Positions 4,431 to 24,421 of a stretch of DNA of 30,915 nucleotides are shown here, piece by piece. Source of the DNA: a virus. The stretch covers positions 1-30,915 of IMG/VR virus record IMGVR_UViG_3300044631_000918; one strand, written 5' to 3'. Positions within the stretch are counted from its first letter, which is position 1. Every line of letters starts with the position of its first letter. The notes beneath the pieces were generated by a model. It saw nothing but the letters and a program-made list of their open reading frames with translations. It did no database searches and was not told where the DNA came from. The position numbers and the translations under genes are program-made.

Positions 4431-4862
4431 TCAGAGACCGATCGCGTTCGCTGCGCCGGCTGCGGCTGCGTCTGAGACACCGTCCGCAGGATTCGAGAGT
4501 TCCGCGATGATCGCGCTACCGATTCCGCCGGTCCCGTGAGTAAAGGTCGCTCGGAGGAAACGCTTTCGACCTCGGAGGTCGACGTTCCAGATCACCTTTG
4601 CGAGACTGGTCGCGTTCGTAGTTGCTGAGCCGGTCCAGTCCGTTCCCTGAATGTAGCCGGCGAAGGTAGCGAAAGAACCGGTCGAAACGTCGCCTTCTTC
4701 GAGTTTGTTGTTCGTACCGCTCGAGACCGTACCCGTCGAGGACGAGAGACAGAGGATCTTCATAAAGTTGAAGCCGAGCGTGTCGAACTCCGCCGAGATC
4801 GTCGAGAGTGTGTTCGTCGTTGCGTTGATCGCTCCGACGATTGTCTTTGAGTTTTGTCGCAT
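4431..4862 (-). CDS. Capsid-associated (decoration-type) protein, copy 1
   Basis: This 143-residue Ser/Thr/Ala-rich, beta-rich protein is encoded 18 nt after the major capsid gene and is the last gene before a terminator, the usual position of a head decoration or minor capsid protein. ATG 4860-4862 follows a strong GGGGAGGA. It is clearly homologous to the protein at 22555-22968. Shared blocks include DT-GF-F near the start, STGT, GTDWTGSATTNAT versus GTDYTLSASTNAS, RGRKRFLRATFTH versus LGKRRYLKATIEH, and NPADGVS versus DPVDGVS. Decoration is inferred from position; no experiment-backed family is recognised. Confidence 0.72.
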   Translation of the reverse strand: MRQNSKTIVGAINATTNTLSTISAEFDTLGFNFMKILCLSSSTGTVSSGTNNKLEEGDVSTGSFATFAGYIQGTDWTGSATTNATSLAKVIWNVDLRGRKRFLRATFTHGTGGIGSAIIAELSNPADGVSDAAAAGAANAIGL

Positions 4863-11806: not shown

Positions 11807-12126
11807 TCAGACTTCGGAGCGATGCGCTCGATCTCGACGACCTCTTCGCGGATCGTCTCCTCGCTCCGCTCCTTCTGTCCGAGGATCTGCTTTCCGAGCC
11901 AGATCAGCATCGCGACGTTTCCCTCGCTTGCCTTCTTCCATTGAAGCCGGCGAAGACTGGTCTTCATCTTCGCGGATCCCTTCGCGATCGCTTCGCGACA
12001 GTCCGCGCGTTTCTGGAGCGTTCGATCGGAGCATCCTACGAGGAAGCCGATCTCCTCCTGAGTGCAACCGATCGCGGCTGCGGCTTCGATCTGTCGGAGG
12101 TCAAGTTCGAGTCGCGGTCGAGCCAC
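11803..12126 (-). CDS. terS: Terminase small subunit
   Basis: This 107-residue protein starts MARPRLELDLRQIEAAAAIGC and has a helix-turn-helix (TQEEIGFLVGCSDRTLQKRAD) followed by a helical oligomerisation region (WKKASEGNVAMLIWLGKQILGQK), the standard small terminase pattern. It recognises viral DNA and loads the large subunit, whose gene follows with a 4-nt overlap. The start is GTG at 12124-12126, inside the last 26 nt of the methyltransferase gene. Confidence 0.9.
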   Translation of the reverse strand: MARPRLELDLRQIEAAAAIGCTQEEIGFLVGCSDRTLQKRADCREAIAKGSAKMKTSLRRLQWKKASEGNVAMLIWLGKQILGQKERSEETIREEVVEIERIAPKSE

Positions 12127-13297
12127 GTTCCGCCTTCCTTCCGGTTAGTTTCTCCCAACGTGAGACGATGACATCGCAATACGCGGGAGAGATTTCGAGA
12201 CCGAAGCAGCGACGCTTCAGTTGCTCGGCTGCGAGAAACGTCGATCCAGATCCTCCGAACGGCTCGAAGACGAGACCGCTCGGAGGACATGAGTTCCCGA
12301 TCGCTCGAGCCGGTAGAGCGACTGGTTTCTGCGTCGGATGTTCGTAGTCGCTCGAAGAGTCTCTGCTGATCTGCCAGACATCGGACGCGGCTTCCTCCGT
12401 CCTCGCTCCGTACCATTTCTCGAGCGATCCTCCGCCGGACTTGTATCCGTGAAAAATGATCTCGTATTGATTGTGATAGCCGTTCGGCTTCATCGTGAAG
12501 CCGTTCTTCTTCCAGATTAAATGTCTCGGAAGTTGCCGACAATGCTTCTCGAATAGTTTCTGATAGAGGTACAGGTTTCCTTCACCTCCGCAGAAGTAGA
12601 GCCGCGCGTCGTCCTTCGTCGCGATTGTAACTGCGAGATCGAAAGAGAACGGAATCGCGGTCTGCGTGAGATCGCCGGCGATCATCGTCGGTCTTCCGTT
12701 TTTGCTCCCTTGAATGTTGACACCGTACGGAGGATCGGTGAAGACGACATCAGCCTTCTCTCCGTTCATCAATCGCTCGACATCCTCAGACTTCGTCGAG
12801 TCTCCGCAGAGCAAGCGATGATCTCCGAGAATCCAGAGGTCGCCGCTCTTCGTGATCGGATCGACTGGAGCGTCTGGAACTTCGTCCTCCGTCACTTCAT
12901 CGGGAGCGAGTAGAGCGTCGATCTCCTTCGCATCGAATCCGGTCGCGAGCGCGAGATCCTCATCCTCGATCTGGAGAGCCGCGAGAGTCTGCGAGAGAAC
13001 GTCATCGTCCCACTCCGCGAGTTCACTCGAGCGATTGTCCGCGATCGCGTACGCGGTCGCTTCGCTTCCCGAGAGAGGAGATCGGACGATCGCGATCTCT
13101 TTCCATCCGAGAGACTTCGCAGCCGCGAGAGTTCCGTTTCCGGCTCGGACGACTCCGCTCGCGTCGACGACGATCGGCTTTTGCTGTCCGAATCGCTGAA
13201 GACTCGACCGGATCGCTCCGAGGTTCTTCTCGTCGTGTTTCCGAGCGTTCGCCGGATCGAAGACGAGCGTGTCAATCTTCACGAGTTCCGTCTTCAT
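12101..13297 (-). CDS. ParB-domain DNA methyltransferase (beta-class, DPPY)
   Basis: This 398-residue protein has an N-terminal ParB/Srx-like domain (about 1-110; VRAGNGTLAAAKSLGW and AYAIADNR are typical). The methyltransferase domain follows, with TDPPYGV (DPPY at 188-191), HPTQKP (320-325) and the SAM-binding FEPFGGSGST (344-353). Motif IV before motif I means the beta class. DPPY suggests methylation of adenine N6 (or cytosine N4). Such ParB-methyltransferases are common next to phage terminases and may protect phage DNA or mark packaging sites. No cognate endonuclease is adjacent. Confidence 0.92.
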   Translation of the reverse strand: MKTELVKIDTLVFDPANARKHDEKNLGAIRSSLQRFGQQKPIVVDASGVVRAGNGTLAAAKSLGWKEIAIVRSPLSGSEATAYAIADNRSSELAEWDDDVLSQTLAALQIEDEDLALATGFDAKEIDALLAPDEVTEDEVPDAPVDPITKSGDLWILGDHRLLCGDSTKSEDVERLMNGEKADVVFTDPPYGVNIQGSKNGRPTMIAGDLTQTAIPFSFDLAVTIATKDDARLYFCGGEGNLYLYQKLFEKHCRQLPRHLIWKKNGFTMKPNGYHNQYEIIFHGYKSGGGSLEKWYGARTEEAASDVWQISRDSSSDYEHPTQKPVALPARAIGNSCPPSGLVFEPFGGSGSTFLAAEQLKRRCFGLEISPAYCDVIVSRWEKLTGRKAERGSTATRT

Positions 13298-13965
13298 GCT
13301 TCCTCCGCGTTTAGTTGCTCGATGATCTTTCGCGCTCGAGACTCCGACTCGTAACGTATCTCGGCTGCGAAGTGTCGAGCGTTTTTCGCGTCGACGAGTG
13401 ACGGATGAATCCACCAGTCCTCAACGGGTACGAGTCCGTGTCGACCGCTCTCATATCTCGCGATCATCCGGACGTCTTCCGCGACGCGCTCGTATCCGAA
13501 GCCTTCGAGGATGCCGTTCATCGCGAACTTTACGATCGAGTTTCCCCGATAGCGATCATGCTCGACCGTGAGAACTCGGAAGAGAACTCGATCGAGCGGA
13601 AGTCCAGAGAGACAAGACAGAGTCACTTCCGGCGGCTCGAGATCGAGCGAGAGAAAGTCGATCGTGTCATCGTCTTTCTTCGCGAGTTCGACGATCGCGT
13701 CGACGACCTTCCGATCGAGAGCGTCTCCGAAGATCTTGTTCGCGCTCGATCGCTTCTCGATGAGCGCGTCCTTCGTCGCGATATCCGCGAGGATCCCCGA
13801 CCAACCAAAGAACCGCTCGAGAGTGAAGGTATTCGAGAACTCCTTCGGATCGCCGGCTCCGAGGTCGACGAAGGTTCCTCCGATCTTTCCGTCGAGCGCG
13901 AGCGCGACGAAAGCATCCTGTCCGGCTTGCGCGGTCGACTTCACGTCGATTTCTTCCTTCTCCAT
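13294..13965 (-). CDS. FkbM-family SAM methyltransferase
   Basis: This 223-residue protein has the FkbM (Methyltransf_21) architecture: AQAGQDAFVALALDGK near the start, SAM motif FVDLGAGDP (32-40), WSGILADI, DFLSLDLEPPE and a late VEHDRY segment. FkbM enzymes usually O-methylate sugars or small molecules. The ATG follows AGGAGAGACACA, and its stop overlaps the DNA methyltransferase start (ATGA). With the glycosyltransferase at 3218-4336 it may belong to a glycan-modification set. The target is unknown. Confidence 0.8.
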   Translation of the reverse strand: MEKEEIDVKSTAQAGQDAFVALALDGKIGGTFVDLGAGDPKEFSNTFTLERFFGWSGILADIATKDALIEKRSSANKIFGDALDRKVVDAIVELAKKDDDTIDFLSLDLEPPEVTLSCLSGLPLDRVLFRVLTVEHDRYRGNSIVKFAMNGILEGFGYERVAEDVRMIARYESGRHGLVPVEDWWIHPSLVDAKNARHFAAEIRYESESRARKIIEQLNAEEA

Positions 13966-19498: not shown

Positions 19499-19761
19499 AG
19501 TGTCTCCGTTTCGTCTCCGTCGCCGGAGGAGCCGTCGCGAGACGACTCCTCCGACTTGCCGAGGAGACAGACTTCCGCGTCCTGCGGGTTCGGCTGCGAG
19601 GATTGTAGTCGTCTCCATTCGATCATGGAGACGATCCAGACGATCGCGCTCGCTTCTTCAGCGTTCGTCGGCTGCGTTCGTCGGAGTAGATCCTCGAGTC
19701 CTGCGACGACGTACTTCGAGAGGTACGGTCGACGGTTGACGGGTTTCGCGGCGATGCTCAT
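19495..19761 (-). CDS. Unknown protein
   Basis: This 88-residue protein starts MSIAAKPVNRRPYLSKYVVA. A helical middle (LEDLLRRTQPTNAEEASAIV) contains a hydrophobic WIVSMIEW. The tail is disordered and acidic (SEESSRDGSSGDGDETETL). Both ends overlap the neighbouring genes (ATGA). It lies between the Gp157-like and CsrA-like genes. No family is recognised. Confidence 0.72.
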   Translation of the reverse strand: MSIAAKPVNRRPYLSKYVVAGLEDLLRRTQPTNAEEASAIVWIVSMIEWRRLQSSQPNPQDAEVCLLGKSEESSRDGSSGDGDETETL

Positions 19762-20273
19762 CGGATCGCGATCCTCGTTCCTCGTTCAGAGAGAAGAGCG
19801 AATGAAAGACGTTCGCCGGCTTCGAGCGCGGCTCGGATCTTCTCCTTGTCCGGCTCAACGATCGTCTTCGTCTTCGTGAACTCCGGCGGTACTTCTCCGT
19901 GAACGTCGAGCGGTTTCTTCCCTCCGTTCTTCGCGAGCGAGACGCGGTAGTTCGCGGTCTCGATCGCGGGGAGCGAGCGAGCCTCCCAAACTGCTCGGAG
20001 CCGTTCACGGAGCCGGCTCGCGGTCGATTCGTCGACCTTCGCTCGAGCCGCGAGTCTCGCGGCTTCGTTCGATCGAGCGGACGCTCGCGCTTCGAGTTCT
20101 GCGATGAACCGACAGTAACCGTCGACCTTCGCGGAGAGGTTCGATTCGAGTTCGGCTTCCCAAGCGGAGAGGATCTCTTCGGATCGAGGATCGGAGAGGT
20201 CTCCGCCGGTCTCCGCGAGGATCTCGTCGAGCGCGTTCATATCGTCGGAGAGAGAGAGGAGGGTAGTTTTCAT
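19758..20273 (-). CDS. Siphovirus Gp157 family protein
   Basis: This 171-residue protein follows the Gp157 (PF05565) pattern: an acidic N-terminus NALDEILAETGGDLSDPRSE, a long coiled coil around KVDGYCRFIAELEARASARS, RLRERLRAVWEARSLPAIET, then YRVSLAKNGGKKPLDV and PDKEKIRAALEAGERLSFAL. Gp157 proteins are early phage proteins, once linked to phage resistance; the biochemical role is unclear. ATG 20271-20273 overlaps the upstream stop. Confidence 0.82.
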   Translation of the reverse strand: MKTTLLSLSDDMNALDEILAETGGDLSDPRSEEILSAWEAELESNLSAKVDGYCRFIAELEARASARSNEAARLAARAKVDESTASRLRERLRAVWEARSLPAIETANYRVSLAKNGGKKPLDVHGEVPPEFTKTKTIVEPDKEKIRAALEAGERLSFALLSERGTRIAIR

Positions 20274-20458
20274 CGGACCTTCTTTCGGGGAGTGACGATC
20301 CGCGAGTCGCGAATCGTGAAGAGAGCGAGTTTCAGGGAGCGATCGAGGGACGGTTTCCAAGCGATCCCGAGCCGGCAGAGCGCGGAGCGGTGTCGCATTG
20401 TGGCGGACTGAGCCGTCGTCGACTTCTCGATCCAGAGGAGGAGACGTTCGGGACTCAT
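20270..20458 (-). CDS. Small basic protein
   Basis: This 62-residue basic protein starts MSPERLLLWIEKSTTAQSAT and ends SRIVTPRKKVR. ATG 20456-20458 follows GGAGGCTCGCG and overlaps the HTH gene's stop. It could bind nucleic acid given its charge, but no motif is visible. Confidence 0.68.
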   Translation of the reverse strand: MSPERLLLWIEKSTTAQSATMRHRSALCRLGIAWKPSLDRSLKLALFTIRDSRIVTPRKKVR

Positions 20459-21831: not shown

Positions 21832-22509
21832 TCAGAACGGGATCTCGACCTCGTCGCGGTCGACCGCTCGAGCATCGCGGGAAACCGCGCGAGGATTCGC
21901 GGGGAGCCGTCCGAGCGACTCGACCGACTGGAGAGCGGTCCCGAGGACGGCGGCTCCTGAGCCGATCCTACGCGCTCGGAAGATCCCTCCCCAAAACTCC
22001 CGAGGATCATCCGTACCGCTCTGGTCCGTTCGCTCGACGCGACGACCGGTCGCGATGTCGTGAACCGCGAGGAGTTCGGCGGAGGTCCATTGTTCGAGAG
22101 CCGGCGGGAACGACGATCCTCGAGCCGATCCGAGGTAGTTCGTGATGTCGGCTCGACGGAGCGGATCGAGCCGGCGGAGATCCTCGCGGATCCGACTCCA
22201 GTCGTCCTCGACTCTCTGTCGCTCGACATCGAGCGAGAGACCGCGAGCGATCGCTTTCTCGCGCTTCGTCGCGGGAGCCGTCTCCTCCGTCGTCGTCTTC
22301 TTCGCGTAGAACTCGAAGAACTTCGCAGGGATGAACTTCCCTCGCGATCCTCCATAGATGAGAGCGTAGTCCTCGAGAGCCGCGAGACAGACTGAAAGCC
22401 TCAGTCCCGCGACGCGCTGCTTCGCGAGCGCGAAGATCTCCTCGTCCATCTCCCCACGAAAAAGAACGCGAACTCTCGCGACAAACTCCGCTAGTTCTGA
22501 ACTCGTCAC
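21832..22509 (-). CDS. Unknown early protein (possible replication accessory)
   Basis: In this 225-residue protein the first 75 residues are helical (SSELAEFVARVRVLFRGEMD, LSVCLAALEDYALIYGGSRG, KFIPAKFFEFYAKK). They vaguely resemble N-terminal domains of phage helicase loaders or replisome organisers. The middle is charged and basic, and the C-terminus ends with an acidic ...RDEVEIPF tail like those that bind partner proteins. GTG 22507-22509 has the ribosome-binding site ACGGAGACAGC. Replication is a weak guess. Confidence 0.6.
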   Translation of the reverse strand: MTSSELAEFVARVRVLFRGEMDEEIFALAKQRVAGLRLSVCLAALEDYALIYGGSRGKFIPAKFFEFYAKKTTTEETAPATKREKAIARGLSLDVERQRVEDDWSRIREDLRRLDPLRRADITNYLGSARGSSFPPALEQWTSAELLAVHDIATGRRVERTDQSGTDDPREFWGGIFRARRIGSGAAVLGTALQSVESLGRLPANPRAVSRDARAVDRDEVEIPF

Positions 22510-22554: not shown

Positions 22555-22968
22555 TCAGCCGATCGCGAGCGTATCGGTCCCGGCTTCGGTCGCGGAAGAA
22601 ACTCCGTCGACTGGATCCGTAAGGACCGCGTTCAGTTGGCATCGGCCCGAGGTCGCGTGTTCGATCGTCGCCTTGAGATAGCGACGCTTCCCGAGCATCG
22701 AGACCGCGAAGATAATCTTCGGTTTCGTCGATGCGTTCGTACTCGCGGAGAGAGTGTAGTCCGTTCCCTGAACGAGTCCGGGGATCGCGATCCAAGTCGA
22801 ATTATCGTCGGACTGCTCGATCTTCGTATTCGTCGTGAGTGCGCCGGTCGACGCGCTCGAGAATATCACTCGAGCGAAGCGGAAACCTTGCGTGTCGACT
22901 GAGCCGGTAAGAGCCGAAGAACTCGACTCGTTCATCAAGACGGACTTCGTGTTCTGGAAACTTCTCAT
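22555..22968 (-). CDS. Capsid-associated protein paralog, copy 2
   Basis: This 137-residue beta-rich protein is homologous to the protein encoded next to the major capsid gene (4431-4862). Shared blocks are DTQGFRFARVI, STGAL, GLVQGTDYTLSASTNAS, LGKRRYLKATIEHATSG and LTDPVDGVSS. It stands alone in the early region behind the strongest promoter in the genome (23084-23113) and is followed by the ATGGA leader. Its role could be a second decoration protein or an exapted copy. The ATG has only a weak GAGAGA Shine-Dalgarno. Confidence 0.7.
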   Translation of the reverse strand: MRSFQNTKSVLMNESSSSALTGSVDTQGFRFARVIFSSASTGALTTNTKIEQSDDNSTWIAIPGLVQGTDYTLSASTNASTKPKIIFAVSMLGKRRYLKATIEHATSGRCQLNAVLTDPVDGVSSATEAGTDTLAIG

Positions 22969-23020
22969 ATCTCTCTCATCGGCTGCGAGAAAGAGCGAGA
23001 GAAGGAGAGAGAGAAAGATG

Positions 23021-23061
23021 AAAACGAAAGACGGGACCAGACCTGAAGTCCGATCCCGTCT
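23021..23061 (-). terminator. Promoter-proximal hairpin with T-rich tail (attenuator candidate)
   Basis: As minus-strand RNA a 14-bp stem (AGACGGGATCGGAC / GTCTGGTCCCGTCT, two G.U pairs) with loop TTCAG is followed by TTCGTTTT. It starts about 16 nt after the predicted start of the promoter at 23084-23113. It may stop most transcripts early or back up the terminator at 23145-23179. Confidence 0.6.
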
Positions 23062-23075
23062 ATCTCTCTTTCTCC

Positions 23076-23098
23076 GGGGAGGGGTTATAGGGGAGGGG
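23076..23098 (+). other. Four-run G-quadruplex motif
   Basis: The plus strand reads G4-A-G4-TTATA-G4-A-G4: four runs of four guanines with loops of 1, 5 and 1 nt. It consists of two copies of GGGGAGGGGTT separated by ATA. It lies on the template strand of the minus promoter and contains its -10 box. Confidence 0.8.
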
Positions 23099-23113
23099 TT
23101 TTCCGTATGTCAA
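23084..23113 (-). promoter_or_regulatory. Near-consensus sigma70 promoter
   Basis: TTGACA (23108-23113, perfect) and TATAAC (23084-23089, 5 of 6) are separated by 18 nt, reading toward the capsid paralog at 22555-22968. This is the best promoter match in the window. The -10 lies in the central loop of the G-quadruplex motif. Confidence 0.82.
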
Positions 23114-23144: not shown

Positions 23145-23179
23145 GAAAAAGACAATCCGCCGAGGTTCTCTCGGCGGAT
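23145..23179 (-). terminator. Rho-independent terminator of the recombination operon
   Basis: A perfect 10-bp stem ATCCGCCGAG / CTCGGCGGAT with loop AGAAC is followed by TGTCTTTTTC on the minus strand. It lies 26 nt after the stop of the HTH gene. Confidence 0.85.
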
Positions 23180-23205
23180 CGCTCGCGGAGTCGAGTGTGG
23201 CTCCC

Positions 23206-23580
23206 TCAGACTCCGTAAGTTTGGGATCCACGCCAAGCGAGGATCATAGAGGTCGAGCGTCTCGAGATCTCGAAACGAAGGACGGGATCGACCGTCTCCC
23301 ACTTCAGCCGGCGACGCGAGACCGAAGCCTCCGCGATCTTCAGCCTCCGAGCGAGATCCTCCTCAGAAGGAGAGAGATGTCCCGGAAGGAGATCGAACGC
23401 AAGTCCGACCGTGAGGAGACTCCGTACCGCTCCGGGGATCTCGAGATCCCTCCGGAGGATCCCCGCGCATCGGAGAGCCTCCTCGACCGTGTACGGACGG
23501 AATACGCGAGGATCCTCCGCGACGATCCCGATCTGAGATCGGACCGACACGACTCCCGGCTCGGTGAAGCGTTCAGACAC
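23206..23580 (-). CDS. HTH protein downstream of the annealing protein
   Basis: This 124-residue protein starts at GTG 23578-23580 with a perfect AGGAGGT Shine-Dalgarno, overlapping the upstream gene by 8 nt (GTGTCTGA). The C-terminal part contains SPSEEDLARRLKIAEASVSR, a helix-turn-helix pattern. The N-terminal part (YTVEEALRCAGILRRDLEI) is helical. It could be a regulator or an origin-binding protein. It ends the operon before the terminator. Confidence 0.72.
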   Translation of the reverse strand: MSERFTEPGVVSVRSQIGIVAEDPRVFRPYTVEEALRCAGILRRDLEIPGAVRSLLTVGLAFDLLPGHLSPSEEDLARRLKIAEASVSRRRLKWETVDPVLRFEISRRSTSMILAWRGSQTYGV

Positions 23581-24421
23581 GGACGACCTCCTCTGAGATA
23601 GAGACGAGAATCGACTTCCCCGAGCGACGCTCGAGCCGGCATCGAGAGATGAGACCGAAAGCCTGATTCGCTTCGAGCGAAGTCGCGAGGTTCGGATCGA
23701 CGATCGCGATCGGAGGGAGCGGTTCCTGATCGACGCGCCAGATCGTCTTTCCGCTCCCGTTCGTGACGACCGAGACCTTCGCGTTCGGGAAGATCTCGAC
23801 CTCGCTCGAGGTTTCCTCAACGACTGGAGCCGCGACCTCTGGAGCCGGCTCGACGACGGTCGACTCGACCTTCTTCTTCCGACTCGGCTTCTCGGCTTGC
23901 TCCGCAGCCGGCAAAGCCGGCGACGCATGGACGACCGAGAGGTCGACGGGGACCGCTCCCGCGATCGAGTCGACCTCCGTCTCGTCGAGAATCGCGAGAC
24001 CGCAGATCGACAACGTCGCGCGTCGTTTCGCTTTGGTCTCGCATTTCATCCAAGCATTCGCGAGCGACTCTCCTTTGAGGTTCGCAAGCGACACCGATCC
24101 GGTAGAGATGTCCTCGCGTCCGGTCTTGTCTCGGACTGAGACCGTCACCGTGAGGATATCCCCGACGACTTCCTTCGCGAGCGAGACGACGGAGACTCCG
24201 TGAATCTGTCGGAGTTGTTCCGTCGCGGACTTCGTCGCGTAGAGTACTGTCTTCCCGCTCAGTACGAGGTACTGAAAAGGCTGCGTGAGAGGGTTCAAAC
24301 CGAGGGAGTCGCAGACCGCGCGGTATAGCGCGACCCGCTGATCTGGTCCGAGGCGACCGATGTCGCCGGCGGAAATGTACGCTTCTAAAGCGCGGGTTCC
24401 GGCTTGTACGATGTCGTTCAC
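23573..24421 (-). CDS. RecT/Red-beta-like single-strand annealing protein
   Basis: In this 282-residue protein, residues about 20-150 follow a phage annealing-protein pattern: VALYRAVCDSLGLNPLTQPF, then GKTVLYATKSATEQLRQIHG, GSVSLANLKGESLANAWMKC and ETKAKRRATLSICGLAILDE. The rest is a Pro/Ala/Glu linker and a short C-terminal domain. Such proteins anneal complementary strands in phage recombination. GTG 24419-24421 overlaps the stop of the preceding micropeptide. It may act with the nucleases at 16238-16582 and 18581-19027. Confidence 0.7.
   Translation of the reverse strand: MNDIVQAGTRALEAYISAGDIGRLGPDQRVALYRAVCDSLGLNPLTQPFQYLVLSGKTVLYATKSATEQLRQIHGVSVVSLAKEVVGDILTVTVSVRDKTGREDISTGSVSLANLKGESLANAWMKCETKAKRRATLSICGLAILDETEVDSIAGAVPVDLSVVHASPALPAAEQAEKPSRKKKVESTVVEPAPEVAAPVVEETSSEVEIFPNAKVSVVTNGSGKTIWRVDQEPLPPIAIVDPNLATSLEANQAFGLISRCRLERRSGKSILVSISEEVVRV

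Follow-up and report, generated by a model that had tools for sequence, protein, structure and literature searches.

A conserved promoter of uncultured phages with its -10 element at the centre of a C-rich mirror repeat, possibly related to triplex DNA

The window analysed here is a whole IMG/VR virus record with a length of 30,915 bases. The genes around the promoter described below are located on the minus strand. The upstream operon contains a gene for a 282-aa protein (23573..24421, minus strand), which we take to resemble the RecT/Bet annealing proteins and which has no PHROG or Pfam match, and a gene for a 124-aa protein, ORF_B (23206..23580, minus strand), the gene immediately upstream of the promoter in every case. 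The predicted structure of ORF_B is all-helical with a C-terminal helix-turn-helix and a mean pLDDT of 88, which is a confident prediction. Its structure matches are weak, the best informative one being the DNA-binding domain of DnaA (probability 0.77, E 1.9), and ORF_B is therefore labelled just a helix-turn-helix protein; it is a candidate regulator. An intrinsic terminator-like hairpin (23152..23182, minus strand) closes the upstream operon.

The first gene in the transcript of the promoter encodes a 137-aa protein of PHROG 5707 (22555..22968, minus strand) and is a paralogue of the gene at 4431-4862, which adjoins the major capsid gene. It is accessory; most relatives are without it at this place, and the slot holds a nuclease-like gene in relative L039 and nothing in L036. 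The L039 gene (L039:7413-7769) is thermonuclease-like and lies between the promoter and the gene for a 225-aa protein. Tandem PHROG 5707 copies, separated by GAGAGGGGAGGG-AAA-CCTCCCCTCTC hairpins, were observed in relatives such as L003 and L005-L031. The 225-aa gene itself (21832..22509 in the window, minus strand) is the first core gene, and a conserved one, of the promoter's operon in relatives; about 20 of them have it downstream of the promoter. A 15-bp leader hairpin with a T-rich tail (23029..23061, minus strand) is located about 15 nt past the expected start; the leader fold has a z of -4.9, and the hairpin is also present in L002 and, at least partly, in L004. Within 22969-23079 the CU-rich leader pairs with the GAGAGAG ribosome-binding region. 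Hairpin and leader pairing together are likely to act as an attenuator or in translation control; the hairpin alone is a candidate stabiliser or attenuator. Apart from tRNAs in L088, no known RNA families were found in the window and nine relatives. Other genes in the window presumably encode a ParB-like/DNA methyltransferase-like protein (12101-13414) and an FkbM-like methyltransferase (13294-13965), and Siphovirus Gp157 (Pfam PF05565) was identified at 19758-20360.

The promoter consists of the -35 element TTGACA (23108..23113, minus strand) and the -10 element TATAAC (23084..23089, minus strand), 18 bp apart when read from 23113-23108 to 23089-23084; near-consensus hexamers are thus spaced within the 16-19 bp of sigma70-type promoters. 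It is the top sigma70 match in the window, with one mismatch to a consensus that may not be that of the host, and the runner-up has three. A generic consensus scanner misses it because the scanner requires T at the last position of the -10 element. TATAA (23085-23089, minus strand) forms the centre of a mirror repeat. The upstream arm CCCCTCCCC (23090..23098, minus strand) occupies the spacer end, about -13 to -21, and the downstream arm CCCCTCCCC (23076..23084, minus strand) the discriminator and start region; base 23084 is common to the downstream arm and the -10 element. The purine strand of both arms is GGGGAGGGG on the plus strand, and that of the downstream arm is the third strand proposed below. 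The plus (template) strand over 23076-23098, GGGGAGGGGTTATAGGGGAGGGG, is also a potential G-quadruplex of the form G4-A-G4-TTATA-G4-A-G4, the single match on both strands of the window for four runs of at least three G with loops of up to seven.

A sequence-only reading of this DNA had described the promoter and its G-runs, and the description is exact, base for base. It had named two 11-bp repeats, and both 11-mers are exact copies of AACCCCTCCCC. That reading is also right that a G-rich foldback of the template strand has the -10 element as its central loop, and the rank given to the promoter as the best of the sigma70 type is borne out by the lead of two mismatches. The genome had further been called poor in long G-runs; no second cluster exists, but 71 isolated GGGG runs occur on the two strands. 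A possible part in starting replication had also been suggested; an early operon does follow the promoter, but no evidence of an origin was found.

Relatives were chosen by protein alignment of ORF_B against viral contigs, with no DNA motif required. The promoter was found in the same place in all 36 readable distinct regions, window included, which supports the earlier opinion that the arrangement is unlikely to have arisen by chance. The order in the relatives is a terminator (a terminator-like stem plus T-run at the same location), TTGACA/TTTACA, a C-tract at the spacer end, TANAA(C), a second C-tract and the operon of the 225-aa protein. The -35 element is TTGACA/TTTACA in all relatives, with TTGACG/TTTACG in a few, and the -10 element is TANAAC, with its third base free, in most. 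The tract that follows TANAA comprises 4-8 C in all relatives, a G/C-rich discriminator. A scan of viral contig DNA for C4-TANAAC-C3 behind TTKACA resulted in 87 stretches, versus three with a reversed -35 element. Many of the 87 lie on contigs carrying ORF_B and the 225-aa gene; several belong to phages in which neither was detected. No relatives among cultured phages were found for the intergenic DNA or for ORF_B, and only distant ones for the capsid. ORF_B was absent from 5 genomes and from 385 genomes (class of the Niveispirillum hit) in which it was searched. Judged by its conservation, the G-rich block is a genuine promoter of an uncultured phage family, in which it is the predicted driver of the early operon. 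This operon is probably linked to replication.

Promoter melting might be tuned by an intramolecular quadruplex of four runs that the template strand forms around the -10 loop. As in known promoter G-quadruplexes, a G4-forming template-strand sequence spans the -10 element in the window. The perfect four-run motif is present in the window, L002 and L004, the G3+ rule is satisfied by 22 of 35 relatives when long runs are split, and the G4Hunter score is at least 2.0 in all. The remaining 13, a third of the relatives, are unable to make four runs of three G at all because of short or plain arms such as C6-TAAAA-C6, and the four-run quadruplex was rejected as a conserved feature. The intramolecular fold also offers no role for the mirrored interruptions or for the T-to-T/A code of the arms described below, and it is considered quite unlikely. 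A variant, in which hairpins of two molecules build one quadruplex, would also want equal arms, which suit it. A conventional hairpin in the G strand was rejected, as the strand gives no fold. The window could form a four-run quadruplex, but this is not the feature that selection maintains. The link between folding and promoter melting that had been proposed stays plausible for a structure as such, not for a conserved four-run quadruplex. The quadruplex reading is here replaced by a mirror-repeat promoter architecture that is probably related to triplex DNA.

Counted outward from the -10 element, the two arms match in the relatives as six C with six, seven with seven, eight with eight, 5-T with 5-T/A and 4-T-4 with 4-T-4. 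The pattern of C and non-C is mirror-identical over the first seven positions in 35 of 36 regions. The mirror register fits 164 of 171 cells, the direct-repeat register 112 of 171. When the 21 distinct arm pairs were permuted, the triplex code described below reached a z of 9.7, mirror identity 7.6 and direct repeat 4.6. A direct-repeat operator was rejected as the main symmetry, since mirror scores lie above direct ones. The ORF_B tree implies 11 changes in the upstream arm and 10 in the downstream arm; nine share a branch, and all nine end in the same mirrored result. The chance of such shared-branch changes is 8e-9 with equal branches and 2e-5 with length-weighted branches, both approximate values, as the counts come from parsimony on a single-gene tree and related sequences are non-independent. 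Compared with its siblings (L146-L152), L150 has a matching C-to-T change in each arm, and each arm of L171 is one C longer than in L170. The symmetry is broken beyond position 6-8 at a few sites (C8/C6 in L136, C8/C7 in L134, C7/C8 in L165). All mirror elements of comparable strength in the window and its relatives, a total of 1.09 million strand-bases, are located at this promoter. As this comparison shows, the property that is conserved at the sequence level is the mirror symmetry of two C-rich arms around the -10 element. In sequence terms it is a signature of triplex (H-DNA), not of quadruplex.

Homopolymer tracts are hypermutable. The paired C-tracts could in principle grow and shrink together by replication slippage or template switching, and misalignment could homogenise a direct repeat. 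Slippage copies direct and not mirrored sequence, and mirrored partners in which A stands for T cannot be templated. The joint changes also keep their register to the -10 element, and these genomes contain no element of the kind at any other place. Slippage was rejected on the grounds that the arms are mirrored rather than direct and that nothing comparable exists elsewhere, and a mutational artefact of any of these kinds is regarded as very improbable.

Both C-tracts might alternatively be bound by ORF_B or another phage protein, which would regulate the promoter; ORF_B, always the adjacent upstream gene and with a confident helix-turn-helix model, would be suited to this function. Protein dimers recognise dyads and tandem sites are direct repeats, and the mirror symmetry is unlike either. 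The spacing of like elements varies between 13 and 16 bp, and the same paired C-tracts are present in phages without detected ORF_B. A protein operator is therefore thought unlikely, although it retains some weight.

Triplex DNA forms from mirror repeats (PMC13125764). In the purine motif a third strand on a homopurine duplex arm gives A(T)AT and GGC triads (PMC4666352), and the mirror arms that H-DNA of this motif (H-r5) calls for are present in the proportions given above. The interruptions of the C-tracts follow the same rule. In the family, all 21 distinct arm pairs have T as the first interruption of the upstream arm. Opposite an upstream T within the first eight positions, the downstream arm has T (10 times), A (10 times), C once and G never; counted over the co-variable cells, TT and TA occur ten times each with five exceptions, consistent with the triads G*G.C, A*A.T and T*A.T. 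Pyrimidines on the C strand average 9.6 of 10 positions in the upstream arm, as a homopurine duplex arm would have them, and 7.6 in the downstream arm. The strictly pyrimidine upstream arm, together with the tolerance of A and T downstream, points to the 5' purine half as the third strand, an isomer named H-r5 (PMC9171763). The pyrimidine-motif isomers and H-r3 are at odds with the A partners.

With H-DNA and purine-motif triplexes (H-r isomers) the element has in common the homopurine/homopyrimidine mirror repeat with a short centre, the triad code and a duplex arm that is strictly purine on one strand. It differs from them in its short arms (6-10 bases), in its fixed position on a promoter -10 element, in its conservation by co-variation in a phage family, and in that the triplex is here deduced from sequence. 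In the bacterial TMECO/PIT/BoxC elements, GGGNGAGGG-N3-GGGNGAGGG is closely similar in length and composition to GGGGAGGGG-TTATA-GGGGAGGGG (PMC4666352). For a bacterial single-strand triplex with GGGNGAGGG arms and a loop of three bases the melting temperature is 70-82 C (PMC4666352), so that such arms can be stable, though the topology differs. TMECO includes a CCCTCNCCC arm of its own within the same strand, and the phage element is limited to two arms; a third complementary arm of the TMECO type was not found around 23076-23098, and the strand fold gives no stable duplex. TMECO elements also lie outside promoters, with no promoter activity reported and no phage association found (PMC4666352). 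Arms of 6-9 and loops of 3-5 are inside the limits used for bacterial triplexes (PMC4666352). The main physical doubt is that arms of 6-10 bases are short for a triplex formed from duplex DNA; C(TC)16 is the shortest form of that sequence for which H-DNA is cited as detectable (PMC9171763).

The promoter could be considered a topology-gated switch, that is, a supercoiling-sensitive promoter with its -10 element as the loop of an H-DNA-like mirror repeat, a reading that we put forward tentatively and that may well prove wrong. In negatively supercoiled DNA the purine (template) strand would fold back with its downstream half over the -10 loop, and this half would become the third strand on the upstream duplex (H-r5, with G*G.C and A*A.T or T*A.T triads). 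The non-template strand would be left single-stranded from about -12 to +2, approximately the extent of the transcription bubble. H-r5 predicts single-stranded TATAACCCCT on the minus strand and protected G's on the plus strand. In relaxed DNA the G+C-rich flanks would hold the -10 box shut, and the promoter would fire mainly on circular, gyrase-supercoiled phage DNA. Both the formation of the triplex and its effect on the promoter are suggested by the arm sequences; that the effect is opening rather than locking is a further step, and the triplex could equally lock the promoter. If the model is true, it describes a mechanism for a phage to sense that its own DNA is circularised and supercoiled.

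A different explanation for the same elements needs no folded DNA. The C-rich discriminator and the C-rich spacer end would by themselves set the stability of the open complex, under stringent or supercoiling control. G/C-rich discriminators are known to give promoters supercoiling sensitivity and stringent control (PMC8422995), and the phage promoter resembles this class in its all-C discriminator adjoining a near-consensus -10 element. Alphaproteobacterial promoters that are stable-RNA-like, those of Ancylobacter among them, read CCC-TATAA-CCCCG, and TANAAC fits the Caulobacter RpoD box GCTANAWC (PMC8144410). The likeness to Caulobacter-type RpoD promoters (TTGaCgS / GCtANAWC) lies in the TANAAC -10 element with its free third base; the phage has C and not GC before TA, and the box may not be that of its host. 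The joint change of the upstream and downstream arms in mirror register is left unexplained by properties of the polymerase, and the supercoiling-sensitive class is without a paired upstream arm or mirror co-variation. An explanation from the polymerase alone is accordingly rated as improbable.

Coupling of the arms was also observed beyond the ORF_B family. Of 24 distinct sites picked for TTGACA and an upstream C6 alone, 23 also had four or more C downstream, and of 29 picked for a downstream C6 alone, 20 had an upstream C6. Phages without detected ORF_B but with at least C5 on both sides provided 14 arm pairs, some of them interrelated, with a z of 4.6 for the triplex code. The coupling is also present, in weaker form, in unrelated phages. 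Promoters of this kind might form a class that arose in two or more phage lineages: a triplex-forming mirror repeat, maintained in evolution, would have the -10 element as its loop, the template would open or lock the bubble by folding, and early expression would depend on topology; this generalisation is possible but doubtful. No matching description of such a promoter architecture was found in the literature searched, which covers few subscription journals. Whether natural triplex DNA has a function in bacteria and phages is a long-standing question, most cases being sequence potential alone. The compensatory co-variation described here is the type of evidence behind RNA helices, and it concerns one functional site across many phages.

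The motif is rare among bacteria and archaea, with 30 sites in 257 Gb of genome sequence, several of them without long mirrored arms, and it was rejected as a general bacterial promoter. Several of the 30 resemble alphaproteobacterial stable-RNA promoters. L177, L180, L184, L187, L189, L197 and L199 (Ancylobacter) as well as L190 and L191 contain alphaproteobacterial CCC(CC)-TATAA/TAAAA-CCCCG promoters; those of Ancylobacter have in common a conserved start region resembling stable RNA, and those of L190 and L191 precede tRNA-like sequence. In T4-like phages (L048:12593-12624, L057:7351-7382 and similar) TTGACA-17-CCCCC-TATAAC-CCC follows a tail-tube-like gene, with arms that are short and unmirrored past the C-tract. 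In L050 (10940-10974) and L053 (3882-3916) a C6-TACAA-C6 promoter is found in antisense orientation to structural genes; a terminator-like sequence comes directly after it, and any RNA made from it may be very short.
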